Of a stretch of DNA of 23,488 bases, positions 4,499 to 23,116 are shown in pieces (the stretch's first letter is position 1; each line of letters opens with the position of its first letter). The translations under genes were made by a program, and so were the position numbers. The notes under the pieces were generated by a model. The model saw only the letters and a program-made list of their open reading frames with translations. It did no database searches and had not been told where the DNA came from. The stretch comes from a virus. The stretch lies in IMG/VR virus record IMGVR_UViG_3300044953_000875, positions 1 to 23,488 of that record; one strand, written 5' to 3'.

Positions 4499-5830
4499 TC
4501 ACACGACCTTCTTTATTTTGAACATTTGTGTCGAAAGGCCCCACTCGGCATCATTGTGTGCCTGAACCAACCAGATTGTGTATGGTTCGATGGGCGTCTT
4601 TTCGTTCCCCCAGATGCGAAGCCAGGCGGAACGAGACTCGTCATCGATGATCTTGGCACGAATGAATGGCTTGCCATTCTTCGTTTTCTTACGTTGGATT
4701 TCTTGGATGCAGCACCACCCGATGCCTTCAGTGCCAGGCTCAATGTCTGTCAGCTTCTCCACGTTCTTTTCACGAAGCTTGCGCATCAGATCAGATGGAA
4801 ACAGAAGTTCCACATCCGCAGAGGCTGTAAGCTCGTAGGACATCTGAATTTTTTCTGCACGATTCCAATCTGGTGTATCTCGCAAACGTTCGAGTTCCTG
4901 AGTTAGGAAAGGATTGGGGGCTTCACCTTTCTTCAGGGTTCTTTTCATCTGGGCGGAAGTCATTCCGTACTTACCACGCTTTAGAAGTCCGTAGTTCTTA
5001 TCCTCGGTGATTGCAGACAGAAGTTGGTTGTAGTTGACCACTTCACCGTTCTTTACTTCATCAAGTGAATCGAAAGCCTCGATCTTGCAAAGCGCCACCA
5101 AACATGTTCGATTGACCTTGCCAAGTTTCCACTTACCTTCCTCATCGAAGAACATATCGTCCAGAGACTTGAAAGGACGCTGTTCCATGATTTCTTCGAC
5201 CGCGGCCCGGCCGATACCCTTTACCGCCGTGAGCGGAGGAACGAAAGCCTTGATTTCTTCAGAATAAGTCCACTCGGTACCTGAGTAATTGATGTCCACC
5301 TTAGCGAAGGAATATCCCATCTCTCGGATTTCGTTGATGGCCTTTGCCAATCCGGTGTCGCTACCGTTTTCAATTTGCAGAACAGTTGCCAACCACTCCT
5401 TCGGATAGTAGGTGGAGAACCAGGCGCCGTAGTAGGAATCGATTGCGTAAGACACCGCATGGCTCAGATTGAAACCGTACAGCGAGAAGAAGGCAATCTT
5501 ATCGAAGAGGTCCTTGGCTTTCTTCCTGTCAAGTCCTGACACATTCACACAACCATCGATGAACTTGGTTTCCAAAGCCACCTTCTCATCGGCCTTCTTG
5601 TCCAGTGAGGTGAGATCCTTCTTCACCAAAGTCTTTCGCATTGCGTCAGATTCACCAGGTGTGAATCCGGCCAACTGCTGTGACAGAAGCATAAATTGCT
5701 CCTGAAAGCAATTTGAGACAACGTGACCATTTGCAAAAAAAGTGTGATTATTCTTCACACCTATGTCATACACTTGTTGTAATGAGCCGCGAGAGATCGA
5801 CTTGATTTTTGTCGTACGAACCACAGGCAT
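4499..5830 (-). CDS. dnaE: DNA polymerase III alpha, fragment 5 of 5 (intein-4 C-part plus C-terminal extein)
   Basis: A 443-aa polypeptide. Residues 1-40 are an intein C-part ending FFANGHVVSN. The extein starts at Cys41 (CFQEQFM), matching the DnaE motif usually written TYG..YQEQVM. The 403-aa extein has the finger-region AGFTPGESDAMRKTLVKK, the FNLSHAVSYA and YYPKEWLATVLQ motifs, a helix-hairpin-helix at TAVKGIGRAAVEEI, and an OB-fold near the end (IQRKKTKNGKPFIRAKIIDD). ATG 5830 is chosen because GAGGG sits 9 nt upstream; an in-frame TTG exists at 5845. To take part in replication this piece must be trans-spliced to fragment 4. It ends 36 nt before the epimerase ATG. Confidence 0.92.
   Translation of the reverse strand: MPVVRTTKIKSISRGSLQQVYDIGVKNNHTFFANGHVVSNCFQEQFMLLSQQLAGFTPGESDAMRKTLVKKDLTSLDKKADEKVALETKFIDGCVNVSGLDRKKAKDLFDKIAFFSLYGFNLSHAVSYAIDSYYGAWFSTYYPKEWLATVLQIENGSDTGLAKAINEIREMGYSFAKVDINYSGTEWTYSEEIKAFVPPLTAVKGIGRAAVEEIMEQRPFKSLDDMFFDEEGKWKLGKVNRTCLVALCKIEAFDSLDEVKNGEVVNYNQLLSAITEDKNYGLLKRGKYGMTSAQMKRTLKKGEAPNPFLTQELERLRDTPDWNRAEKIQMSYELTASADVELLFPSDLMRKLREKNVEKLTDIEPGTEGIGWCCIQEIQRKKTKNGKPFIRAKIIDDESRSAWLRIWGNEKTPIEPYTIWLVQAHNDAEWGLSTQMFKIKKVV
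5711..5830 (-). other. Split intein 4, C-part (40 aa)
   Basis: Block F is VYDIGVKNNHTFFANG and block G is HVVSN followed by extein Cys+1. The terminal Asn is present. The usual penultimate His is Ser, which occurs in some functional inteins that also vary at that position. Its partner is the N-part at 5956-6240. Confidence 0.9.
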
Positions 5831-5951
5831 TGCGTATTCCCTCAAGATTTTTCATGAAATTTTGACTATCTGAATGCCAGATACGTGAAATATTGTATCC
5901 ACAATTTCTAGCATGTTCAGTGTGAAGCCTATACGATGCGATCGTAAACGT
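5826..5951 (-). pseudogene. Remnant of a Vsr-like homing endonuclease tail between intein-4 halves
   Basis: In one minus frame this gap reads TEHARNCGYNISRIWHSD and then QNFMKNLEGIRNA. That resembles the C-terminal end of Vsr-like homing endonucleases (R...GY.I.RIW.SD......LE.I). The tail of the intact endonuclease at 7646-8704 is similar in pattern (GTKIQIIWESAW then KRLQELIL). No start, catalytic motif or upstream part remains. The preserved end carries GAGGG, the SD of fragment 5, which may be why it survived. Inferred from pattern; not tested by alignment. Confidence 0.6.
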
Positions 5952-5952
5952 A

Positions 5953-6540
5953 TCAAGCAATGTGCAAAATTTCATCATCCAAAGCAAGTTCACCAGCACA
6001 AACCCATCCTCTTGTTGTCATGACTTTGTGATTTGGTGTAAGTTCCAATTTACCGTCTTCGGTTTCAATGATGATAGTTTCATGAAAACCTTGATCGAAG
6101 AATTGTGTAATTTCATCGAGTTCCACTTCACCTGTTTTCACATTATATGATGGCAACTTTGCAGATAATTTCTTATCAACAATTTCCTTGATGGGAATTT
6201 CCCCATTCTCAGTGAGAACCAACGTATCACCTGTCAGGCAAATGTGGCCATAAGTAGAGCCCAGAACATTCTCAATGGCAGGATGATCATACATGATTTT
6301 GCTAGCGTCCTGCTTAGCTTGGACGTACATCTTGTGGACGTTAGCCTTCAGAGGACCGGGACGGTAAATTGCCGTGATCGCTGAAAGGTCAGTGATGTTA
6401 TCGGGTTGTGCCTCGAGGCAGAATTTTCTGGCGCCTGAATTATGAGCAACAATTCCATTTGCTACAAAATTTGCAGTGTCAGGCACTGTCAAATCATACA
6501 CATTCATTTCACCTACGGGTCTTTTCGCAATAACTTTCAA
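5953..6540 (-). CDS. dnaE: DNA polymerase III alpha, fragment 4 of 5 (C-part intein 3, 66-aa extein, N-part intein 4)
   Basis: A 195-aa polypeptide. Residues 1-34 are the C-part of intein 3 (VYDLTVPDTANFVANG, then IVAHN). Residues 35-100 are a very short extein starting SGARKFCLEAQPDN, containing the DnaE motif TAIYRPGPL and ending STYGHI. Residues 101-195 are the N-part of intein 4. The start is TTG at 6540, with GAGGTG 4 nt upstream; the next in-frame ATG (6507) would cut into block F. Two trans-splicing reactions are needed to place this 66-residue piece in the polymerase. Both junctions fall in conserved DnaE motifs (GIFQFTS^S and TYGHI^C), the usual choice of inteins. Confidence 0.92.
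   Translation of the reverse strand: MKVIAKRPVGEMNVYDLTVPDTANFVANGIVAHNSGARKFCLEAQPDNITDLSAITAIYRPGPLKANVHKMYVQAKQDASKIMYDHPAIENVLGSTYGHICLTGDTLVLTENGEIPIKEIVDKKLSAKLPSYNVKTGEVELDEITQFFDQGFHETIIIETEDGKLELTPNHKVMTTRGWVCAGELALDDEILHIA
5956..6240 (-). other. Split intein 4, N-part (95 aa)
   Basis: It starts at Cys1 with block A CLTGDTLVLTENGEIPIKEI. Block B is LTPNHKVMTTRGWVCAGEL with the catalytic TxxH (TPNH). It ends at a TGA stop after DDEILHIA, a normal length for a split-intein N-part. The extein upstream ends TYGHI. Confidence 0.93.
6439..6540 (-). other. Split intein 3, C-part (34 aa)
   Basis: Block F is VYDLTVPDTANFVANG and block G is IVAHN; the next extein residue is Ser. It is the only one of the four with Ser+1 rather than Cys+1. 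It initiates at TTG 6540. The gap to the N-part stop is only 53 nt and has no endonuclease gene. Confidence 0.92.
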
Positions 6541-6593
6541 GGGTCACCTCGTTCATAAACAACTTTTGTAAATCTTCTTTGAAGAGCATTACT

Positions 6594-7649
6594 TTAGGGG
6601 ATGTCAGGATAATCATACTCGACAATATCGTCACTGTCTGTCAAGTCTTTCGCCTCAACCCAACCTCTATTTGAGGTTAGAAATTTGTGATCCAACGTAC
6701 ACGTGAGTGCGCTTCCGTTTTCAAGGGTCAATTCGACACATTCCTTCTTGCCTTGGTCAAGGAAATCACTGACAACTTTATGTTCGAATTGCTGTAAGTT
6801 TTCATTGAATGATACGACCACATCGTTTGCCCTGACTTCATCAATTCTTTTTACTTCACCGTTTGCCATGGTGATTTGTGTGTCACCTGTTAGACAGCTC
6901 GTGAACTGGAAGATGCCAGGCCACCGACCTTCCTTGAAGACATTGTTGAAGACTTTCATATCATTTGGTTCCACATACCGACAGTTGATCTTGTCATCGT
7001 AGAACTTCTTGATTTCCTCGAACCTGGGTTTCCGCTTGAGTTCCTTGGTCAGAATCCTGCGAATGCAGTCTTCCACCATTTTCATTTGTGCGAGACCGAG
7101 AAAGTCGAACTTTAGGAAGCCGTTGTCTTCCAGGTTTCGAATGTTGACGCCTTCGGTCCATGGTGTTTGGAGTTCGCCTCGGACCGTGATCAGAGGCATG
7201 TGCTTTTCCAGTTCAGGACAGATGAGGACGCCACCGGCATGCCGACCGACTGAACGGTTCATCATGAAGAGAGTCTTGACCTTGTCCTCCACCTGTGGGT
7301 ATTTGGTCATGAACTCATTGTACCGCTTGGAGTATTTCATACAGTCCTCGTGCTTGAGGACGAACATGGACTTCTCCATGTTCGGGTCGTGGGACAAGGC
7401 TGCCACCTCATCTTCCAAAGGACCGGTTACAGCATTGACCTCATCAAATGGAATCTGGTAGAACTTGGAGATGTCCTTGACCAGAGACTTCAACTTTAGC
7501 GTGTTGAAGTTGGACACCGGAACCACTGAATTTTCACCAAAGATTTCCTGAGCCGCTTTGATCAACTCATCACGGTCACCGACATCGCAATTGTGAGATC
7601 CGACCCAGGTACCGTTCTCTTTCATTTTGTGAATTTTGGCAGTAATCAA
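6594..7649 (-). CDS. dnaE: DNA polymerase III alpha, fragment 3 of 5 (short C-part intein 2, extein, N-part intein 3)
   Basis: A 351-aa polypeptide if it starts at TTG 7649. AGGAG lies 7 nt upstream, and the TTG overlaps the TGA of the upstream endonuclease gene (TTGA). Residues 1-20 end in GTWVGSHN, an intein block G. The extein (231 aa) starts CDVGDRDELI, completing the DnaE motif PDxDxD...RDE. It contains SVGRHAGGVLI, KFDFLGLAQMKM (the third catalytic Asp) and ends GIFQFTS. Residues 252-351 are the N-part of intein 3. An ATG inside (7625) would leave only 12 intein residues. Extension to an ATG at 7739 would run inside the endonuclease gene with no SD role. Confidence 0.88.
   Translation of the reverse strand: MITAKIHKMKENGTWVGSHNCDVGDRDELIKAAQEIFGENSVVPVSNFNTLKLKSLVKDISKFYQIPFDEVNAVTGPLEDEVAALSHDPNMEKSMFVLKHEDCMKYSKRYNEFMTKYPQVEDKVKTLFMMNRSVGRHAGGVLICPELEKHMPLITVRGELQTPWTEGVNIRNLEDNGFLKFDFLGLAQMKMVEDCIRRILTKELKRKPRFEEIKKFYDDKINCRYVEPNDMKVFNNVFKEGRWPGIFQFTSCLTGDTQITMANGEVKRIDEVRANDVVVSFNENLQQFEHKVVSDFLDQGKKECVELTLENGSALTCTLDHKFLTSNRGWVEAKDLTDSDDIVEYDYPDIP
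6597..6896 (-). other. Split intein 3, N-part (100 aa)
   Basis: Cys1 and block A read CLTGDTQITMANGEVKRIDE. Block B is LTCTLDHKFLTSNRGWVEA with TxxH (TLDH). It ends at a TAA stop after YDYPDIP. The extein before it ends GIFQFTS, a conserved DnaE finger-region site. Confidence 0.93.
7590..7649 (-). other. Split intein 2, C-part, unusually short (20 aa, or 12 from ATG 7625)
   Basis: Only block G is recognisable (GTWVGSHN before extein Cys). There is no block F, unlike the 34-42-aa C-parts of the other three inteins. A block-F-like segment instead appears at the end of the N-part. The endonuclease gene directly upstream leaves no room for a longer C-part with its own frame. Confidence 0.65.
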
Positions 7650-8704
7650 AGTATCAGCTCCTGAAGTCTTTTCAGTATGAGGGGTTTGTTTGCTTTCCAA
7701 GCACTTTCCCAGATGATTTGTATCTTTGTGCCTAGGCACTGTTCAATCTTTTCTATTCGAGCAGCGTCATTTGCCTGTATGTCACAAGCGCGAAGAGTCG
7801 AATAGACGACTTTGTCACTAGCGAAATGTGAAGGATTTGCATGCCAAAAGTCTCCGTAAATCTCTACTGCTACGTTTAGACCTGGAACAAAAAAGTCAAG
7901 ATAATATGACTTTCCATCGACAGACACCCTGTGCCTTCTTGTCTTGTAAGAAGACACAGAAAAATTCTTGAAGATGCTGTTGAGTTCTTCGACAACATCT
8001 TTTTCTAGTTTTGACGTCTGAAGGTATGCATTAGAGCTCGGAAGAACACCTGCATTCATCCCGAACCAATAGTTTTCGTATCCACACTTTGACAGCATCG
8101 TGCATTTTCTCTTTTCATTGCTTTCAACGCACTGAATCGAGAATCTTTTCCCATACCTTGAAATCATCGTTTGTTGCGCTTTCTCAAGTATTTCTTTGTC
8201 TTGGAACGGACGACGGACTCCGTAAGTCGACATCATCGCATGTTCATATTTCTGTTTATACGATTTGCATTTGTGCAAAACACTTTTCTGACACGATTTG
8301 CAAAATGGAGAATTTCGGCCGAACACTTTCACAGCAAGAGGCAAAAAATAAGACTTTTGGCAGTCAGGACATACAAATTCGAACTGAAGTCGTACGGTCC
8401 GACTAATTGTTAGTTGTTGCTCATCTTGTGTGACAATGAATTTTCCCCTGCGTACGTACTTGTCTGTTTTCAAAGAAACATGAATGCCATGAAGAATGAC
8501 ACCATTTTCCCAGGCAACACTATGTTGGTTGAAATTCTCCAGAGACATTTGGATGGTGCCATTGAATCCTACACCGATAATCTTCGCTTCATCTTCATTT
8601 GCGAAGATGAAACCGGCATTTTCAGACGCTTCACGCTTGATCTTGTCCCAGTCGTTCCACTGGTTAATCTCAGCTATTTCAGCTAACTTCACTCGTTTCA
8701 GCAT
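7646..8704 (-). CDS. Vsr-like (EDxHD) homing endonuclease inside fractured dnaE (intein 2)
   Basis: A 352-aa protein. The middle has a zinc-ribbon (CPDCQK... then CKSCQKS) and two similar basic repeats (STYGVRRPFQDKEILEKA and SRYGKRFSIQCVESNEK), as in homing endonuclease DNA-binding regions. The C-terminal nuclease domain has YLDFFVPGLNVAVEIYGDFWHANPSHF split over about residues 270-296; the E...D..H spacing is that of Vsr-like EDxHD enzymes (I-Bth0305I type). It lies between the N- and C-parts of intein 2, the arrangement reported for fractured genes with split inteins. Its start overlaps fragment 2 by 26 nt (GGGTG upstream), and its last codons carry the SD of fragment 3. No disabling mutation is visible. 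Confidence 0.85.
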   Translation of the reverse strand: MLKRVKLAEIAEINQWNDWDKIKREASENAGFIFANEDEAKIIGVGFNGTIQMSLENFNQHSVAWENGVILHGIHVSLKTDKYVRRGKFIVTQDEQQLTISRTVRLQFEFVCPDCQKSYFLPLAVKVFGRNSPFCKSCQKSVLHKCKSYKQKYEHAMMSTYGVRRPFQDKEILEKAQQTMISRYGKRFSIQCVESNEKRKCTMLSKCGYENYWFGMNAGVLPSSNAYLQTSKLEKDVVEELNSIFKNFSVSSYKTRRHRVSVDGKSYYLDFFVPGLNVAVEIYGDFWHANPSHFASDKVVYSTLRACDIQANDAARIEKIEQCLGTKIQIIWESAWKANKPLILKRLQELIL

Positions 8705-10223
8705 TTTTCACCCATTCATCGACAACATCAGTGTCGATGGTATAGGTATGGATGCATCGAAAAATTGTTTCATTCTTTTTTGAGATTTCGGCAACGCTGA
8801 AAGGAGCAACAGTAAATGTAGAACTGGTGTCGACTGAAATGTCGACAAGCGTAAAGTGATTAGCACTTGTCAGAACTTTCTTCATGACAGTCACACGATA
8901 ACCATCGCTAGCAAAAAGCATATCGCACTCTGCAATATGGCGTACTTGAATTTCGGTTCCGTCACACAAAAGCAGCCTATGATTTTCGCTAGCTGTGATT
9001 ACGCCTACTTCACCGTCTTCGTTTTGAAGAAAGATGTCAAAGACGTTCTCGTCTTCTTTCGGGTTTCTCGTGCATGTGAAGTTGACGATTCTGACATACC
9101 CGTTGGCGTCAAAAATTTCATCACCACTGACAAGAGATCCGATCGTTTTCTCACCTTCAGGTGTTTTCACAAGGTGCGCAGAATGTAGGCAATCTACATC
9201 GGGCCATCCCGCCTTGTTGCGGTGCAAGAACCGTTCCCAGAGGAGTCCGTACTTGATGGGATCCACGTGAGTAATGCCTAGCAGGTAGTTGACCAACGAA
9301 CCGGCGCCTGAACCGCGGCCAGCACCTGGCAGCGTCCTGTTTTCAGCCAACTTGAAGACCTTTTGTAAGGTCAAAAAGTAGTCCGAAAACTTGAGGTACT
9401 TGATGTCCGACAGTTCCATCTTGGCACGTTTGATGTATTCTGGCTTGTCGTCCAGTCCTTCTGACTTCAGGGCTTCCTTGACCAAGTCGCAAAGTTGGCT
9501 GAAGGATGACTTTTCCGCAGTGTCAAAGCTCGGAAGCTTTGCAGAAGTATCGAACCACACCTGTTCACACTTGTCCCAGACCACATCGTAACCAGTTTCA
9601 ATGGCAGTCCGTACCACATCTTCTTGGCCATGGTACCAATCGAACTTTTCACGGCGTTGCAGGAATTCCTGCCACATCTGGTCGGCATTCTTAGGGTACA
9701 GCAGCGCCTTGAGCTCCTCCTTCTTCGGAAGCATCGGAACCGAGCCGTCGTTCTTAATTCGACCAGGCTGTAGCATTCGGTACATTTCACGTGCTTCCCA
9801 CAATTCAGGTCCTGGGAAGTGTGAATCTGCAGTTGCGATGAGTGGAATGCCTGTCTTTTTCGAGGTCTCAATCAGCACTCGATTAGTGAAATCTTGCGCA
9901 TCGATAGCATGAAATTGAGTCTCTAAGAAGAAGTTGTCTTTGCCAACGCAATCAACAAATCGGTCAATTGCGTTTTCTACCTTGCCAACCAGCTTTCTCA
10001 TCACAGCAGGATCGTCTGCCAAAGCAGGTGAAAGCTCATTGAATTTCAGACCTGGGAACTCGCTATAGATGAGACCTGATGGGTAACCACCGACGCAGTT
10101 ATGAACAAGAATGCCATCAGCAAAGAAATTATGGGTCTCATCAACAGTAATGTCATACACGTCTTCTTGTTGCTCTAGAACTTCGATACTTTCGATTTCT
10201 AGAAATTCACAATTTTTGTTCAT
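8679..10223 (-). CDS. dnaE: DNA polymerase III alpha, fragment 2 of 5 (C-part intein 1, extein, N-part intein 2)
   Basis: A 514-aa polypeptide from ATG 10223, with GAGG 10 nt upstream; an upstream in-frame GTG (10298) lacks a spaced SD. Residues 1-42 are the C-part of intein 1. The 302-aa extein starts CVGGYPSGL. It contains the remaining PHP motifs (FFLETQFHA, ATADSHF), the polymerase nucleotide-binding loop LPGAGRGSGAGSLVNYLLGI, and ends ERFLHRNKAGWPDVD, which holds the first two catalytic aspartates. The last 170 residues are the N-part of intein 2. The break falls directly after the second catalytic Asp, so this fragment alone cannot form a polymerase active site. Confidence 0.92.
   Translation of the reverse strand: MNKNCEFLEIESIEVLEQQEDVYDITVDETHNFFADGILVHNCVGGYPSGLIYSEFPGLKFNELSPALADDPAVMRKLVGKVENAIDRFVDCVGKDNFFLETQFHAIDAQDFTNRVLIETSKKTGIPLIATADSHFPGPELWEAREMYRMLQPGRIKNDGSVPMLPKKEELKALLYPKNADQMWQEFLQRREKFDWYHGQEDVVRTAIETGYDVVWDKCEQVWFDTSAKLPSFDTAEKSSFSQLCDLVKEALKSEGLDDKPEYIKRAKMELSDIKYLKFSDYFLTLQKVFKLAENRTLPGAGRGSGAGSLVNYLLGITHVDPIKYGLLWERFLHRNKAGWPDVDCLHSAHLVKTPEGEKTIGSLVSGDEIFDANGYVRIVNFTCTRNPKEDENVFDIFLQNEDGEVGVITASENHRLLLCDGTEIQVRHIAECDMLFASDGYRVTVMKKVLTSANHFTLVDISVDTSSTFTVAPFSVAEISKKNETIFRCIHTYTIDTDVVDEWVKNAETSEVS
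8682..9191 (-). other. Split intein 2, N-part, unusually long (170 aa)
   Basis: Cys1 begins CLHSAHLVKTPEGEKTIGSL (block A). Block B is VGVITASENHRLLLCDG, with SxxH (SENH) in place of TxxH. A block-F-like segment, LVDISVDTSSTFTVA, follows near residues 114-128. About 40 further residues without an intein motif precede the TGA. The length exceeds the other three N-parts by about 70 residues. Confidence 0.8.
10098..10223 (-). other. Split intein 1, C-part (42 aa)
   Basis: Block F is VYDITVDETHNFFADG and block G is ILVHN before extein Cys+1, a textbook C-terminus. It starts at ATG 10223. The partner N-part ends 131 nt upstream. Confidence 0.94.
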
Positions 10224-10307
10224 TTCAGAATTTCCTCTAATGGATTCTTGGTGCCTATAAAAGCCTATTCTTTTCAGCTGGGATTTTGGTTTCTTCACTA
10301 CGTTTTA

Positions 10308-10349
10308 TAGCATGCCTCCCGACATGCTAACAAGAGTGCATGTAGGAGG
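10308..10349 (-). promoter_or_regulatory. Two overlapping inverted repeats between intein-1 halves
   Basis: TAGCATG (10308-10314) pairs with CATGCTA (10323-10329) around an 8-nt loop. Alternatively CCTCC...ACATGC (10315-10327) pairs with GCATGT...GGAGG (10338-10349) as 6+5 bp with a small internal loop. The two share CATGC and cannot form together. In the minus-strand transcript one exposes and the other hides GGGAGG. No start codon is properly spaced after it, so its function is unclear. Confidence 0.4.
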
Positions 10350-10354
10350 GAATT

Positions 10355-11236
10355 CTAAACAAGGTTAGTTGAAAGAATTTTCACACCTGGATGTGACGTC
10401 AAATCTTGAGCTTCCATCCACCCCTTGTCAGTGAAGACCTTGTGGTCCGGCGTGACCTTGACTTTTTTTCCACCTTTGAGGGTGATTTGCAAAAGAATGG
10501 CATTTCGCCGAGTGACATCACCCCAAGTTGCCTGTTTGTAAATTGCTCGTTCCTGAGATTCGTCGTAAGAAAGAACACTTACCCATTCACCGCGATTGAC
10601 CTTATCAACCACATCACGCAGACTCAATTTTCCAGCTGATGTTTGCAACACTGCGTCGCCTGATACGCAGGCCGTGCTCACCACCAGACCTTCACCGTGT
10701 TGCTTCAGCAGGTCGAAATCGATTCGTGGAAACTTGTAGAAGCCGTCCTTGAAGGACTTCTTGACCAGGGTGAAGAGGTTGGAGAGACCGATTCGGTTCT
10801 TGGCAATGACAACTAGGTGATAACGCTTGTAGATGTCGTTGACAGAAACCTCTGTACGAGTCTGGTCGGCATCCTCAACCACCAGACCGGCTTCCTCCTC
10901 GTCCTCAGGAGCATCATCCGACTTTGCAGCTTCGGCATCTGCCTTCTTTTGATTGTAAGCCCTCTGCCAATCCTTCAATGATGGAACGAAGTAAAATTCC
11001 ACACCAAAGATCTGGCGGAACTTCTGGCCTTTCTTGTAGAGCTTCTTGGCGTGAGCATGAGCGTGTGCCAGGCCGTTGCCGTTACCGTGGTCCGTTAAGG
11101 ACCAACCATCTAGTCCGTTGTTGATGGAGAAGTCGATGTGTTCCTGGGGATGGCCGAGACCATCATAGGGACTGAAATCGCTGTGGTTGTGTATTGAAAT
11201 AAACCTACTCGGCGGACGTAGAACTCCGTTTGTCAT
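10355..11236 (-). CDS. dnaE: DNA polymerase III alpha, fragment 1 of 5 (PHP domain plus N-part intein 1)
   Basis: A 293-aa polypeptide from ATG 11236, with GGGAGAGG about 5 nt upstream. The 189-aa extein is the N-terminal part of the PHP domain: SIHNHSDFSPYDGLG (HxH metal motif), SLTDHGNGNGLAHAHAHAKK, and KFRQIFGVEFYFVP. An acidic insert follows (residues about 107-125). The extein then ends GEGLVVSTA, where DnaE normally continues C.GG. Residues 190-293 are the N-part of intein 1, ended by TAG. The 3' end of the upstream homing endonuclease overlaps the first 32 nt and contains the SD. Confidence 0.93.
   Translation of the reverse strand: MTNGVLRPPSRFISIHNHSDFSPYDGLGHPQEHIDFSINNGLDGWSLTDHGNGNGLAHAHAHAKKLYKKGQKFRQIFGVEFYFVPSLKDWQRAYNQKKADAEAAKSDDAPEDEEEAGLVVEDADQTRTEVSVNDIYKRYHLVVIAKNRIGLSNLFTLVKKSFKDGFYKFPRIDFDLLKQHGEGLVVSTACVSGDAVLQTSAGKLSLRDVVDKVNRGEWVSVLSYDESQERAIYKQATWGDVTRRNAILLQITLKGGKKVKVTPDHKVFTDKGWMEAQDLTSHPGVKILSTNLV
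10358..10669 (-). other. Split intein 1, N-part (104 aa)
   Basis: Cys1 and block A read CVSGDAVLQTSAGKLSLRDV. Block B is VKVTPDHKVFTDKGWMEAQDL with TxxH (TPDH). It ends with ILSTNLV and a TAG stop. The 131-nt gap to the C-part holds the paired inverted repeats at 10308-10349 and no recognisable gene. Confidence 0.94.
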
Positions 11237-12149
11237 TTTTCCTCTCCCAATTAGGGATGATGTTGCTATACTTGGTCTCAATTTGATTGTATTCAGTTAC
11301 ATCCACAATTTTCATCTGAATGTGTTGAAATTGTTGACGAAACATCTCAAACTTCTCTTTAGCACTGTCGGTCCACCGACCCTTGACTTCGAAGTAAGTT
11401 TCACCCACCTTGAAATCTGGCGTGTAAGTTCTCCCATCAGAAAGAACAAAACTCTCGGGTTCATATTGAAACTGTTGATTGGTGTAAATGAGGTACCTGG
11501 CAAAATTTGCTTCCCATCTGCTTCTGACATAGAATCCGATGTCTTCTCTAATTCCTCCGCGACCATAAAACTGTGTGCGATTTCTGCCTTCACGAAGTCT
11601 TCTCGCGGCACCTTCTCTCATTTTGAGGCAAGCTTCTTCTGAAAGTTTTTGCCCCTTTCGATCGAGACTCATTTTCTTTTTGCCTTCTGCAGTCTTCGTC
11701 CAATGTTCAGACCCATAGTTTTCGACATACCCACGTTTTACTTTTTCACGAAATTCTTCAGACTTCCATTTTTGAGATAGATTCTCAGACATTCTGGACT
11801 TTGTTTCATCTGAAATTTTCCATGTCCCATCTGCTATCATACGCTTACGTGTTACGCCTAATTTTCTGTTCTGTTCTTCGGTCCTCACGTAAGAACCGTT
11901 ACTTCGCCTTTTTGCAACACCTTCTTTTCTAAAACAGGGTGTGCATTTAGCAACTAACTTCTTTTTGCTTTTGTCGAGAAACTTTTGGTCGCAAGTGACG
12001 CACGCTTTTTCTACTACGTCACGCTCAACTTGATATCGTTCTTTTGATCGAAGCTTGTAACTACAGGATTTACTGCATGTCCTAACTGCAGGATTTTCGT
12101 TCAAAACTTCTGATTCACAGATTTCACATTTTCTAATGTTCACACTCAT
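11205..12149 (-). CDS. PD-(D/E)XK homing endonuclease with zinc fingers and NUMOD3-like repeats, upstream of dnaE
   Basis: A 314-aa protein. The N-terminus has two Cys clusters (CEICESE...CSKSC and CVTCDQKF...CTPC). The middle has basic NUMOD3-like repeats (SDETKSRMSENLSQKW; SEEACLKMREGAARRL). The C-terminal nuclease domain has SRWEANFARYL, YTPDFKVG and FEVKGRW, i.e. the Asp and ExK of a PD-(D/E)XK site. The ATG at 12149 has a strong GAGGAGG but lies in an 18-bp inverted repeat. It is free-standing, not inside an intein, yet directly abuts the fractured polymerase and overlaps its ATG by 32 nt. It may target the dnaE region without being in it, but its cleavage site is unknown. Confidence 0.85.
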   Translation of the reverse strand: MSVNIRKCEICESEVLNENPAVRTCSKSCSYKLRSKERYQVERDVVEKACVTCDQKFLDKSKKKLVAKCTPCFRKEGVAKRRSNGSYVRTEEQNRKLGVTRKRMIADGTWKISDETKSRMSENLSQKWKSEEFREKVKRGYVENYGSEHWTKTAEGKKKMSLDRKGQKLSEEACLKMREGAARRLREGRNRTQFYGRGGIREDIGFYVRSRWEANFARYLIYTNQQFQYEPESFVLSDGRTYTPDFKVGETYFEVKGRWTDSAKEKFEMFRQQFQHIQMKIVDVTEYNQIETKYSNIIPNWERKNDKRSSTSAE

Positions 12150-21354: not shown

Positions 21355-21879
21355 TCAATTATATCCTACACACTGATGTTGTTTTGCCCAATCTCGCAAT
21401 TCTGATAGCTTTACAATGTCAAAGATTTTTTCTCTGACTGCATTAACAAGAGCCAACATTCCAGGTGAGGTGCAGGTCTCAGGTGTGTGAAACGCTGTCC
21501 AGATTTTGTATGATGGATCATCATTAAGAAGTTCGTGTTCACCACAAAAAATAATAAGAACCTTCTTGTCGTATTCTTCCGCTTTCAACAGAAAATTTGG
21601 TAACTTTTCTCCTGCGGTTCCAGAACTTCCGAAAAGGTAATTTTTGACTTCGACGTAAGTGTTTAGCAACGGAATGAATCCGTCAGCATGATATGTTGAT
21701 GTTCTTTTGGTGCTTGACTTTCTCTCTATGATTCTAGATTTGCCATTCGTCTTGATCTGATTTCCAAACACCTCAGAGACGCATCTTTCGGCAAATTTTC
21801 CTGACTTAAGACCAGAAAAAGCTTTGTCTATTTCCTTTTCACTAGCAAAACTTTCACATTTCTTTCTTCGCTCATACAT
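21355..21879 (-). CDS. Putative PD-(D/E)XK nuclease, possible restriction endonuclease partner of the methylase
   Basis: A 174-aa protein. The centre reads YHADGFIPLLNTYVEVKNYL: an Asp followed 11 residues later by ExK fits a PD-(D/E)XK nuclease core. GKFAERCVSEVFGNQI precedes it, in the position of the first catalytic helix. KVLIIFCGEHELLND is a likely core strand. No family recognised; the restriction role rests on the fold-like motif and on the methylase 3 nt downstream. No SD is seen before ATG 21879; the TnpB element begins within about 40 nt upstream, so the native leader may have been lost. Confidence 0.55.
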   Translation of the reverse strand: MYERRKKCESFASEKEIDKAFSGLKSGKFAERCVSEVFGNQIKTNGKSRIIERKSSTKRTSTYHADGFIPLLNTYVEVKNYLFGSSGTAGEKLPNFLLKAEEYDKKVLIIFCGEHELLNDDPSYKIWTAFHTPETCTSPGMLALVNAVREKIFDIVKLSELRDWAKQHQCVGYN

Positions 21880-21922
21880 AAAAGTATTAACTTTGCATAA
21901 AATCAGACTATTTAATAGTAGA

Positions 21923-23116
21923 ATGAAGACGATTTTTAGGACATATCAATTTGAATTACAGCCAACACAAGAGCAAAAAGTGTTGTTGGATAAGCATTTT
22001 GGTTGTGTTCGGTTTGTATTCAACCACTTTTTAAATGAAAGGAAAGAGCAATATCAAACCGATAAAAAGTCTGATAATTACTATAAACAGGCAGCTACCT
22101 TAACTGAACTTAAAAAGAAAGAGGAAACTGCTTGGCTAAAAGAAGTGAATAGTCAATCACTACAATTCGCTTTAAGATGTTTAGATACTGCTTATGTGAA
22201 CTTCTTTAGGGGTAACGCTAAATTTCCACGATTTAAGTCTAAAAAGAAAAAGAACAGTTTTACTGTTCCACAGTTCGCAAAACTTGAAAATGGAAGATTC
22301 TACGCACCAAAGTTTAAAGAAGGTGTTAAAGTAAATGTTCACCGAGAAGTTAAAGGTGAAATTGGTAAATGCACTTTGAGTAAAACACCAACAGGTAAAT
22401 ATTTTGTATCAATACTATCAGAAGAACAATATCAACCAAAAGAAAAAACAGGTGCTGTATGTGGAATAGATTTAGGATTAAAAGACTTTGCTATCACTTC
22501 TGATGGGATTAAATTCAAAAACAACAAATACACAAAAAAATATGAAAAAGAGTTAGCGAAAGCACAAAAACATCTTTCTCGTAAGACAAAAGGCAGCAGT
22601 TCGTTTGAAAGACAAAGACGAAAAACTGCAAGACTTCACGAAAAGATAACCAACTCACGAATGGATAACTTACACAAGATATCCTACCAATTAGTATCAG
22701 ATTATGATATAATCGCATTAGAAGATTTGAATGTAAAAGGTATGGTAAAAAACCATAAACTTGCTAAACACATATCCGATGCAAGTTGGGGAACTTTTGT
22801 TAGATTGCTTGAATACAAGGCCGATTGGAACAATAAACAGATTGTAAAAATCAATCGTTTCTATCCTTCAAGCAAAACCTGCTGTGAGTGCGGTTGGATA
22901 AATCAAGACTTAAATCTTTCAATAAGAGAATGGACTTGTAAGAATGGGCACGTCTTAGACCGTGACCTTAATGCTGCAAAAAATATTCTTAAAGAAGGAT
23001 TAAAAATAATATCGTCAGGAACTGGCGATTACACGGGCGGAGACTTAAATCAGACTTCTTTTAAGAAGCACAAGTCTGTGAAACCCGAAGCCCATTTGTC
23101 TTTAGCAAATGGGTAG
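21923..23116 (+). CDS. tnpB: TnpB RNA-guided nuclease (IS605 OrfB family)
   Basis: A 397-aa protein starting MKTIFRTYQFELQPTQEQ, the standard TnpB N-terminus. RuvC-like catalytic residues are seen in CGIDLGLKDFA (Asp), IIALEDLNVKGM (Glu) and DRDLNAAKNIL (Asp). The zinc-finger region is SSKTCCECGW followed by WTCKNGHVLDRD; the second pair is CKNGH where many members have CxxCG. TnpB uses an omega RNA from the element's 3' end to cut DNA next to a TAM. All catalytic residues are present, so it may be active. The frame is open further upstream to 21824, but that part overlaps the nuclease gene and is not TnpB-like. Confidence 0.95.
   Translation: MKTIFRTYQFELQPTQEQKVLLDKHFGCVRFVFNHFLNERKEQYQTDKKSDNYYKQAATLTELKKKEETAWLKEVNSQSLQFALRCLDTAYVNFFRGNAKFPRFKSKKKKNSFTVPQFAKLENGRFYAPKFKEGVKVNVHREVKGEIGKCTLSKTPTGKYFVSILSEEQYQPKEKTGAVCGIDLGLKDFAITSDGIKFKNNKYTKKYEKELAKAQKHLSRKTKGSSSFERQRRKTARLHEKITNSRMDNLHKISYQLVSDYDIIALEDLNVKGMVKNHKLAKHISDASWGTFVRLLEYKADWNNKQIVKINRFYPSSKTCCECGWINQDLNLSIREWTCKNGHVLDRDLNAAKNILKEGLKIISSGTGDYTGGDLNQTSFKKHKSVKPEAHLSLANG

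Follow-up and report, generated by a model that had tools for sequence, protein, structure and literature searches.

Genes fractured by split inteins, in which a homing endonuclease gene intervenes between the two intein halves, were reportedly described by Dassa and colleagues in 2009, with, reportedly, one break per gene. A second well-known case is the cyanobacterial split intein of DnaE (Ssp/Npu DnaE), the insertion site of which is Y/CFNKSHA (here and below a slash marks the splice junction). Here we describe a locus that can be set beside both: in the complete IMG/VR virus record IMGVR_UViG_3300044953_000875 (23,488 bases; hereafter the window), the minus-strand region 4499-11236 holds a phage dnaE gene which, judging from its sequence, very probably acquired inteins at four sites, all of them split today; its five products would be trans-spliced into a DNA polymerase III alpha of 1191 amino acids (aa).

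Like those fractured genes, this is a phage replication gene with split inteins, and a Vsr-like endonuclease lies between the halves at break 2, as at most breaks of its relatives; it differs in having four breaks in one gene, three of them without an endonuclease gene. With the cyanobacterial case it shares a split intein in DnaE and, for inteins 1, 3 and 4, the canonical split position, but here the gene belongs to a phage, its open reading frames (ORFs) are adjacent and the inteins are four in number. None of the four sites matches the cyanobacterial one, and the last extein carries an uninterrupted YGFNLSHA at the corresponding position. The AceL NrdHF split intein likewise comes from a fractured gene on a phage-like metagenomic contig, with an endonuclease between halves of 98+48 aa, but it is of class 3, has a GIY-YIG endonuclease and marks a single break (PMC7891396). 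Several intein sites within one replication gene are also seen in the haloarchaeal MCM, for which four insertion sites, not split inteins, are described (PMC10643990), whereas the inteins of the window are split between ORFs.

A DNA polymerase III alpha encoded in five pieces

Consecutive parts of one phage DnaE are spread over five minus-strand ORFs. At all four breaks an intein N-part runs into a stop, and the next dnaE ORF, which has a start of its own, begins with an intein C-part; removal of the intein parts leaves exteins of 189 + 302 + 231 + 66 + 403 aa, which add up to 1191 aa. Extein 1 (10670..11236) contains the PHP domain (PF02811, E=1.4e-23), extein 2 (9192..10097), with the catalytic motif PDVD at its C-terminus, and extein 3 (6897..7589) match PF07733 (3.8e-27 and 1.3e-18), the 66-aa extein 4 (6241..6438) comes from the finger domain (PF17657, 1.3e-15), and extein 5 (4499..5710, with the stop) matches PRK05673 (1.1e-47) and HHH_6 (3.9e-11). 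Along the pieces the Pfam and NCBIfam matches are thus ordered as PHP, DNA_pol3_alpha (in two halves), DNA_pol3_finger and HHH_6, the DNA_pol3_finger match lying partly in piece 4 and partly in piece 5, while piece 3 holds a weak edge of it. The spliced 1191-aa protein scores 571.5 bits against TIGR00594 (residues 12-1045), above the curated cut-off of 434.35 bits, which none of the five pieces reaches alone.

The joined protein also retains the landmarks of the family: the catalytic aspartates D489, D491, D493 and D653 fall in invariant columns when it is aligned to four phage DnaE proteins that are intact, the shared motifs are kept, and the exteins are free of frameshifts and premature stops. 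In a 76-row DnaE alignment (the window and 75 relatives) the 6 residues on either side are free of gaps at each of the window's junctions, for which the predicted spliced peptides are GLVVSTACVGGYPSGLIY, GWPDVDCDVGDR, FQFTSSGAR and TYGHICFQEQF. The ORFs start at ATG 11236, ATG 10223, TTG 7649, TTG 6540 and ATG 5830, each preceded by an AGGAG/GAGG-like sequence (GGGAGAGG before ATG 11236, GAGG before ATG 10223 and GAGGGA before ATG 5830). An earlier note, made from the letters of the window alone, had claimed five such ORFs with these extein lengths, a separate Shine–Dalgarno sequence for every downstream ORF and a union without gap or overlap that keeps the DnaE motifs in order; all of this is borne out, and the junction columns, which it had proposed to check, align cleanly. 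The guanine-plus-cytosine content of the intein parts (34-46%) is below that of the exteins (48.6-51.3%), as expected for acquired elements. No Rfam family, introns included, matched anywhere in the window, and group I or group II introns were rejected on this ground.

The closest relative, L090 (relatives are loci on viral metagenome contigs and are designated by L-numbers), has an intact dnaE that is 70% identical. Its neighboring genes, named by their similarity to those of the window, come in the same order: thyX, a kinase and a deoxyribosyltransferase-like gene, followed by genes for an epimerase, a thymidine kinase, DHH and a dCMP deaminase. Compared with L090, the five exteins display proportions of nonsynonymous differences (pN) of 0.10-0.27 and of synonymous differences (pS) of 0.80-0.99, that is, a pN/pS of about 0.12-0.31; the exteins are under purifying selection.

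Three canonical split inteins and a divergent fourth

Inteins 1, 3 and 4 fit the class 1 split inteins, with Cys1, a block B TxxH, a C-terminal Asn (in C-halves ending in HN or SN) and Cys or Ser at +1, and are split at the canonical place between blocks B and F, with their halves in separate ORFs. Intein 1 consists of a 104-aa N-half (10355..10669 with the stop; block B TPDH; TIGR01445, 9.1e-11) and a 42-aa C-half ending in VHN/C (10098..10223; TIGR01443, 1.8e-10); intein 3 of a 100-aa N-half (6594..6896 with the stop; TIGR01445, 5.2e-11; Spl DnaX mini-intein, 1.5e-7) and a 34-aa C-half ending in VAHN/S (6439..6540; TIGR01443, 3.5e-10); and intein 4 of a 95-aa N-half (5953..6240 with the stop; TIGR01445, 7.2e-13) and a 40-aa C-half ending in VVSN/C (5711..5830; TIGR01443, 1.2e-5). 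Half sizes at these three breaks match those typical of natural split inteins (PMC10189870). In the profile search with the halves that the earlier note had proposed, these inteins are recognized by Intein_splicing, TIGR01445 and TIGR01443, and fusing the halves gives E=1.9e-19, 5.6e-20 and 2.1e-12 for inteins 1, 3 and 4, respectively. The intein 1 N-half is 41-49% identical to the same-site N-halves of L023, L024 and L116, and that of intein 4 is 56% identical to its same-site counterpart in L106.

Intein 2 is of a different make. Its 170-aa N-part (8679..9191 with the stop), in which Cys1, a block B SENH and a block F VDISVD can be discerned, matches Hint-type families only, the best being PT-HINT (1.7e-6), and is aligned by hhalign to the inteins that related phages carry at site b (E=2.3e-6; columns 1-129 of 140), which places block F (TLVDISVDTSSTF) in the N-part. 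A predicted structure of modest confidence (predicted local distance difference test, pLDDT, 56) has the gp41-1 intein as its best PDB match (Foldseek E=7.7e-8). The last strand and the HN end (KENGTWVGSHN) are supplied by the next dnaE ORF; its start codon is probably TTG 7649, which lies 8 nucleotides after an AGGAG and shares bases with the stop of the endonuclease; the resulting C-part, LITAKIHKMKENGTWVGSHN/C, has about 20 aa (7590..7649). With the two parts fused, PT-HINT scores 26.6 bits instead of 19.4 (model positions 1-134 of 137), a gain that we take as supportive only, because we chose the fusion point. Intein 2 has the Hint-type features of class 1 (Cys1, block B His, block F Asp and the end HN/C), and it is split near the C-terminus rather than between blocks B and F.

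The claim that split inteins occupy all four breaks is upheld, with one correction: break 2 departs from the canonical form, as its N-part includes block F, only some 20 aa are left for the C-part and a 352-aa endonuclease ORF intervenes. C-parts described for natural split inteins measure about 35-48 aa, and in other natural cases it is the N-part that is unusually short (PMC10189870; PMC7891396); very short C-parts are described for engineered inteins (PMC3620165; PMC2664965). In the open-access literature searched we found no natural intein split as intein 2 appears to be, this position being described for engineered inteins only. The engineered S11 and short-C inteins share the split near the C-terminus, with C-parts of 6-15 residues; intein 2, with its somewhat longer C-part, would be their natural counterpart.

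The endonuclease gene between the intein 2 halves (7646..8704, minus strand) codes for a Vsr-like protein resembling F-LimIII of Dickeya phages (tblastn 3e-8); Foldseek matches a low-confidence model of this protein weakly to Vsr (1cw0/1vsr) and to I-Bth0305I (3r3p), with E about 0.01-0.02 and prob 1.00. No endonuclease gene lies between the halves at breaks 1 and 3. At break 4 the spacer (5831..5952; GYNISRIWHS) is, after the real endonuclease, the window's second-best match to a hidden Markov model of related endonucleases; the match is weak (9.3 bits, E 0.035), and the spacer is possibly a relic of an endonuclease C-terminus.

Recurrent breaks across a clade of phages

Our scans of viral metagenome contigs recovered DnaE proteins at 50-73% identity; the distinct loci that share 50% identity or more with one of the three queries number 85. 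The alignment falls into several segments in 13 of these, 11 of which are split; together with L115 (45% identity) they make 12 split relatives. L112 has a contiguous intein in a single ORF and is hence outside this count, and L199 was rejected as intein-bearing since its longer extein segment is in frame and without a break. Searches with the C-terminal extein alone or with the intein 2 N-part, and searches of bacterial and archaeal genome contigs, gave no close relatives. Annotated phages carry only distant DnaE proteins, all below 60% identity (25-29% among the matches listed), and loci L118-L157, from the intein 3 query, display weak intein similarity only.

Across the clade, window included, dnaE has seven break sites. 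Site a (STA/C) is occupied in the window, L023, L024 and L116; site b (GRHR/) in L107, L108, L112, L113, L114, L116 and L117; site b′ (PDVD/C) in the window only; site c (NRS/C) in L116 and L117; site d (TYG../C) in the window and L106; site e (YGFNK/S) in L024, L110, L113, L115 and L179; and site f (FQFTS/S) in the window only. L116 thus has three split inteins in its dnaE, and the five site-e relatives are split within a few residues of the cyanobacterial site. At most breaks in the relatives a Vsr-like homing endonuclease ORF lies between the halves. Sites a to e each show 2-5 state changes on the DnaE tree, which is consistent with repeated gain and loss. If splicing at site e restores YGFNKSHA, the N-halves there seem to lack Cys1, having Ser in L024, L110, L113 and L179 and Thr in L115.

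Two near-matched pairs are informative regarding these transitions. L107, split at site b with an endonuclease, and the intact L092 have extein residues 98.1% and 99.7% identical (dN/dS, the ratio of nonsynonymous to synonymous rates, about 0.025 and 0.008); aligned as DNA, the two break off and pick up again at the insertion, leaving a clean junction. The contiguous 141-aa intein of L112 (11492-11914) shares 93% identity with the two halves of L108 (2899-4275) put together, between which an endonuclease lies.

The residue at +1 tracks intein presence at some of the sites. At site d it is Cys in 2/2 interrupted genes versus 1/74 others, and at site c in 2/2 interrupted relatives versus 0/74 others. 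At site b′ the window has Cys where the other 75 rows have T (39), S (34) or L (2), and at site f it has Ser where other rows vary; as T and S, too, are able to act as nucleophiles at +1, these two sites are weaker evidence than site d. At site a all rows have Cys. The spliced DnaE of L116 (...TYGYFCFQEQF) has a Cys at the site-d +1 position although no intein is present there; it is probably the single exception in the 76-row count and possibly the footprint of a lost intein.

Proposed trans-splicing and its alternatives

We propose that the five ORFs would be translated separately from one operon-like unit, that each N-half would bind its own C-half, and that four trans-splicing reactions would excise the halves of the inteins and ligate the exteins to give the 1191-aa polymerase. 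Four orthogonal reactions are plausible as a prediction: the N-halves are 19-37% identical to one another, and the charges of the halves differ in sign and size (IN1 +3/IC1 -10; IN4 -11/IC4 +4), features that may keep pairing specific; with IN3 at -12, IC1 is predicted to pair with neither IN3 nor IN4. As to history, an intein would first have inserted at a conserved position and then been interrupted and split by the gene of a homing endonuclease; this endonuclease would later have been lost, surviving in this phage in intein 2 only, with the possible relic at intein 4; these two endonuclease traces make the inteins look like former or present homing elements.

The intact syntenic relative, the +1 nucleophiles, the 12 split relatives and purifying selection make a DnaE joined from five pieces by four split inteins, as the earlier note had it, the best reading. 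Several points weigh against it: the four-fold arrangement is known from one record, a 23.5-kb metagenomic contig; TTG is the start codon in two of the five dnaE ORFs; synonymous sites are saturated in the comparison with L090; intein 2 is divergent, with PT-HINT (whole ORF) barely at the Pfam cut-off, no NCBIfam intein model matched and a Ser in block F where His is usual; and the splicing of the five pieces is deduced from sequence.

The alternative that survives best, itself improbable, is that the pieces remain unligated, with the intein halves merely holding the parts together or cleaving without splicing, and the polymerase being a non-covalent complex. Phage genes split by homing endonucleases into separate functional parts offer a precedent, as with mobE in the Aeh1 nrdA (PMC2988022) and a nucleotide reductase example cited in PMC10448857, and the divergence of intein 2 would fit such a state. 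However, the Asn and the +1 Cys or Ser are retained at all four junctions, the +1 Cys at site d tracks intein presence, and the breaks lie inside conserved core motifs, one of them within the catalytic PDxDxD, all of which argues for ligation. Gene decay, with at least one intein dead and the phage relying on another polymerase, is very improbable: the endonuclease gene is gone at three of the four breaks, where the elements are probably no longer mobile, and intein 2 is weakly conserved, but the catalytic aspartates and shared motifs are kept, pN/pS is low in all five pieces and the exteins remain uninterrupted. An assembly artefact, in which sequencing errors or chimerism broke a continuous gene with contiguous inteins, might be suspected of a single metagenomic contig but is next to negligible, given that at every break the stop is followed by a spacer or an endonuclease gene and then by another start that has a Shine–Dalgarno-like sequence, that 12 other contigs show the same organization and that the half lengths fit known split inteins at three breaks.

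Neighboring genes and in-frame stops in relatives

A free-standing endonuclease-like gene (11205..12149, minus strand; Phage_endo_I, 7.4e-4) overlaps the dnaE start of the window, and homologues 41-49% identical to it directly precede dnaE in many relatives, among them L092 (9114-10001), L117 (6070-6954), L098 (152-1039) and L107. A mobA insertion is similarly described for the T4 gene 60 (PMC2988022). Several relatives with such a gene also carry an in-frame dnaE stop, which occurs right after the PHP motif HSTFS in L023 (9965), L113 (10052), L117 (7131), L098 (1217), L163 (1399), L164 and L168 (both 8043), L220 (3496), L190/L191 (8043), and also in L235, L236, L238, L243 and L245; it is absent from the dnaE of the window. 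The stop, in the context TCC TAG GTA TCT (in L190 instead TCG TGA CCT AAA TCG), belongs to a short insertion relative to the intact dnaE and sits within a long hairpin, predicted at about -37 to -48 kcal/mol, the equivalent of which L190 builds from a different sequence. By analogy, the combination of stop and hairpin resembles T4 gene 60-type translational bypass or programmed readthrough. The window further codes for a TnpB-like IS605 OrfB protein (21824-23116, plus strand), on the strand opposite to dnaE.

Implications

Fractured genes and split inteins are of a known kind; new here are how many of them one gene holds, the series of states across the clade and an apparent natural split near the C-terminus. 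The earlier note knew of no gene with four split inteins, and we too found in the open-access literature searched no earlier natural gene with at least three. The four-fold split is so far singular, in keeping with that note, but the case is not isolated, since the related L116 has three split inteins in its dnaE. One might go further and suppose that repeated invasion left the polymerase dependent on four trans-splicing events, that the splits were kept after endonuclease loss as an assembly-based control of replication, and that intein 2 is the first natural intein split between the last two motifs; we consider this combined scenario unlikely. For assembling a protein from several pieces, the set would offer natural split inteins that are probably mutually specific, and the very short C-part of intein 2 would suit chemical synthesis. 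For the clade itself, the states range from empty through contiguous and split to split with an endonuclease over the seven sites, and near-matched pairs, such as L092/L107 and L112/L108, make the origin of split inteins directly testable.

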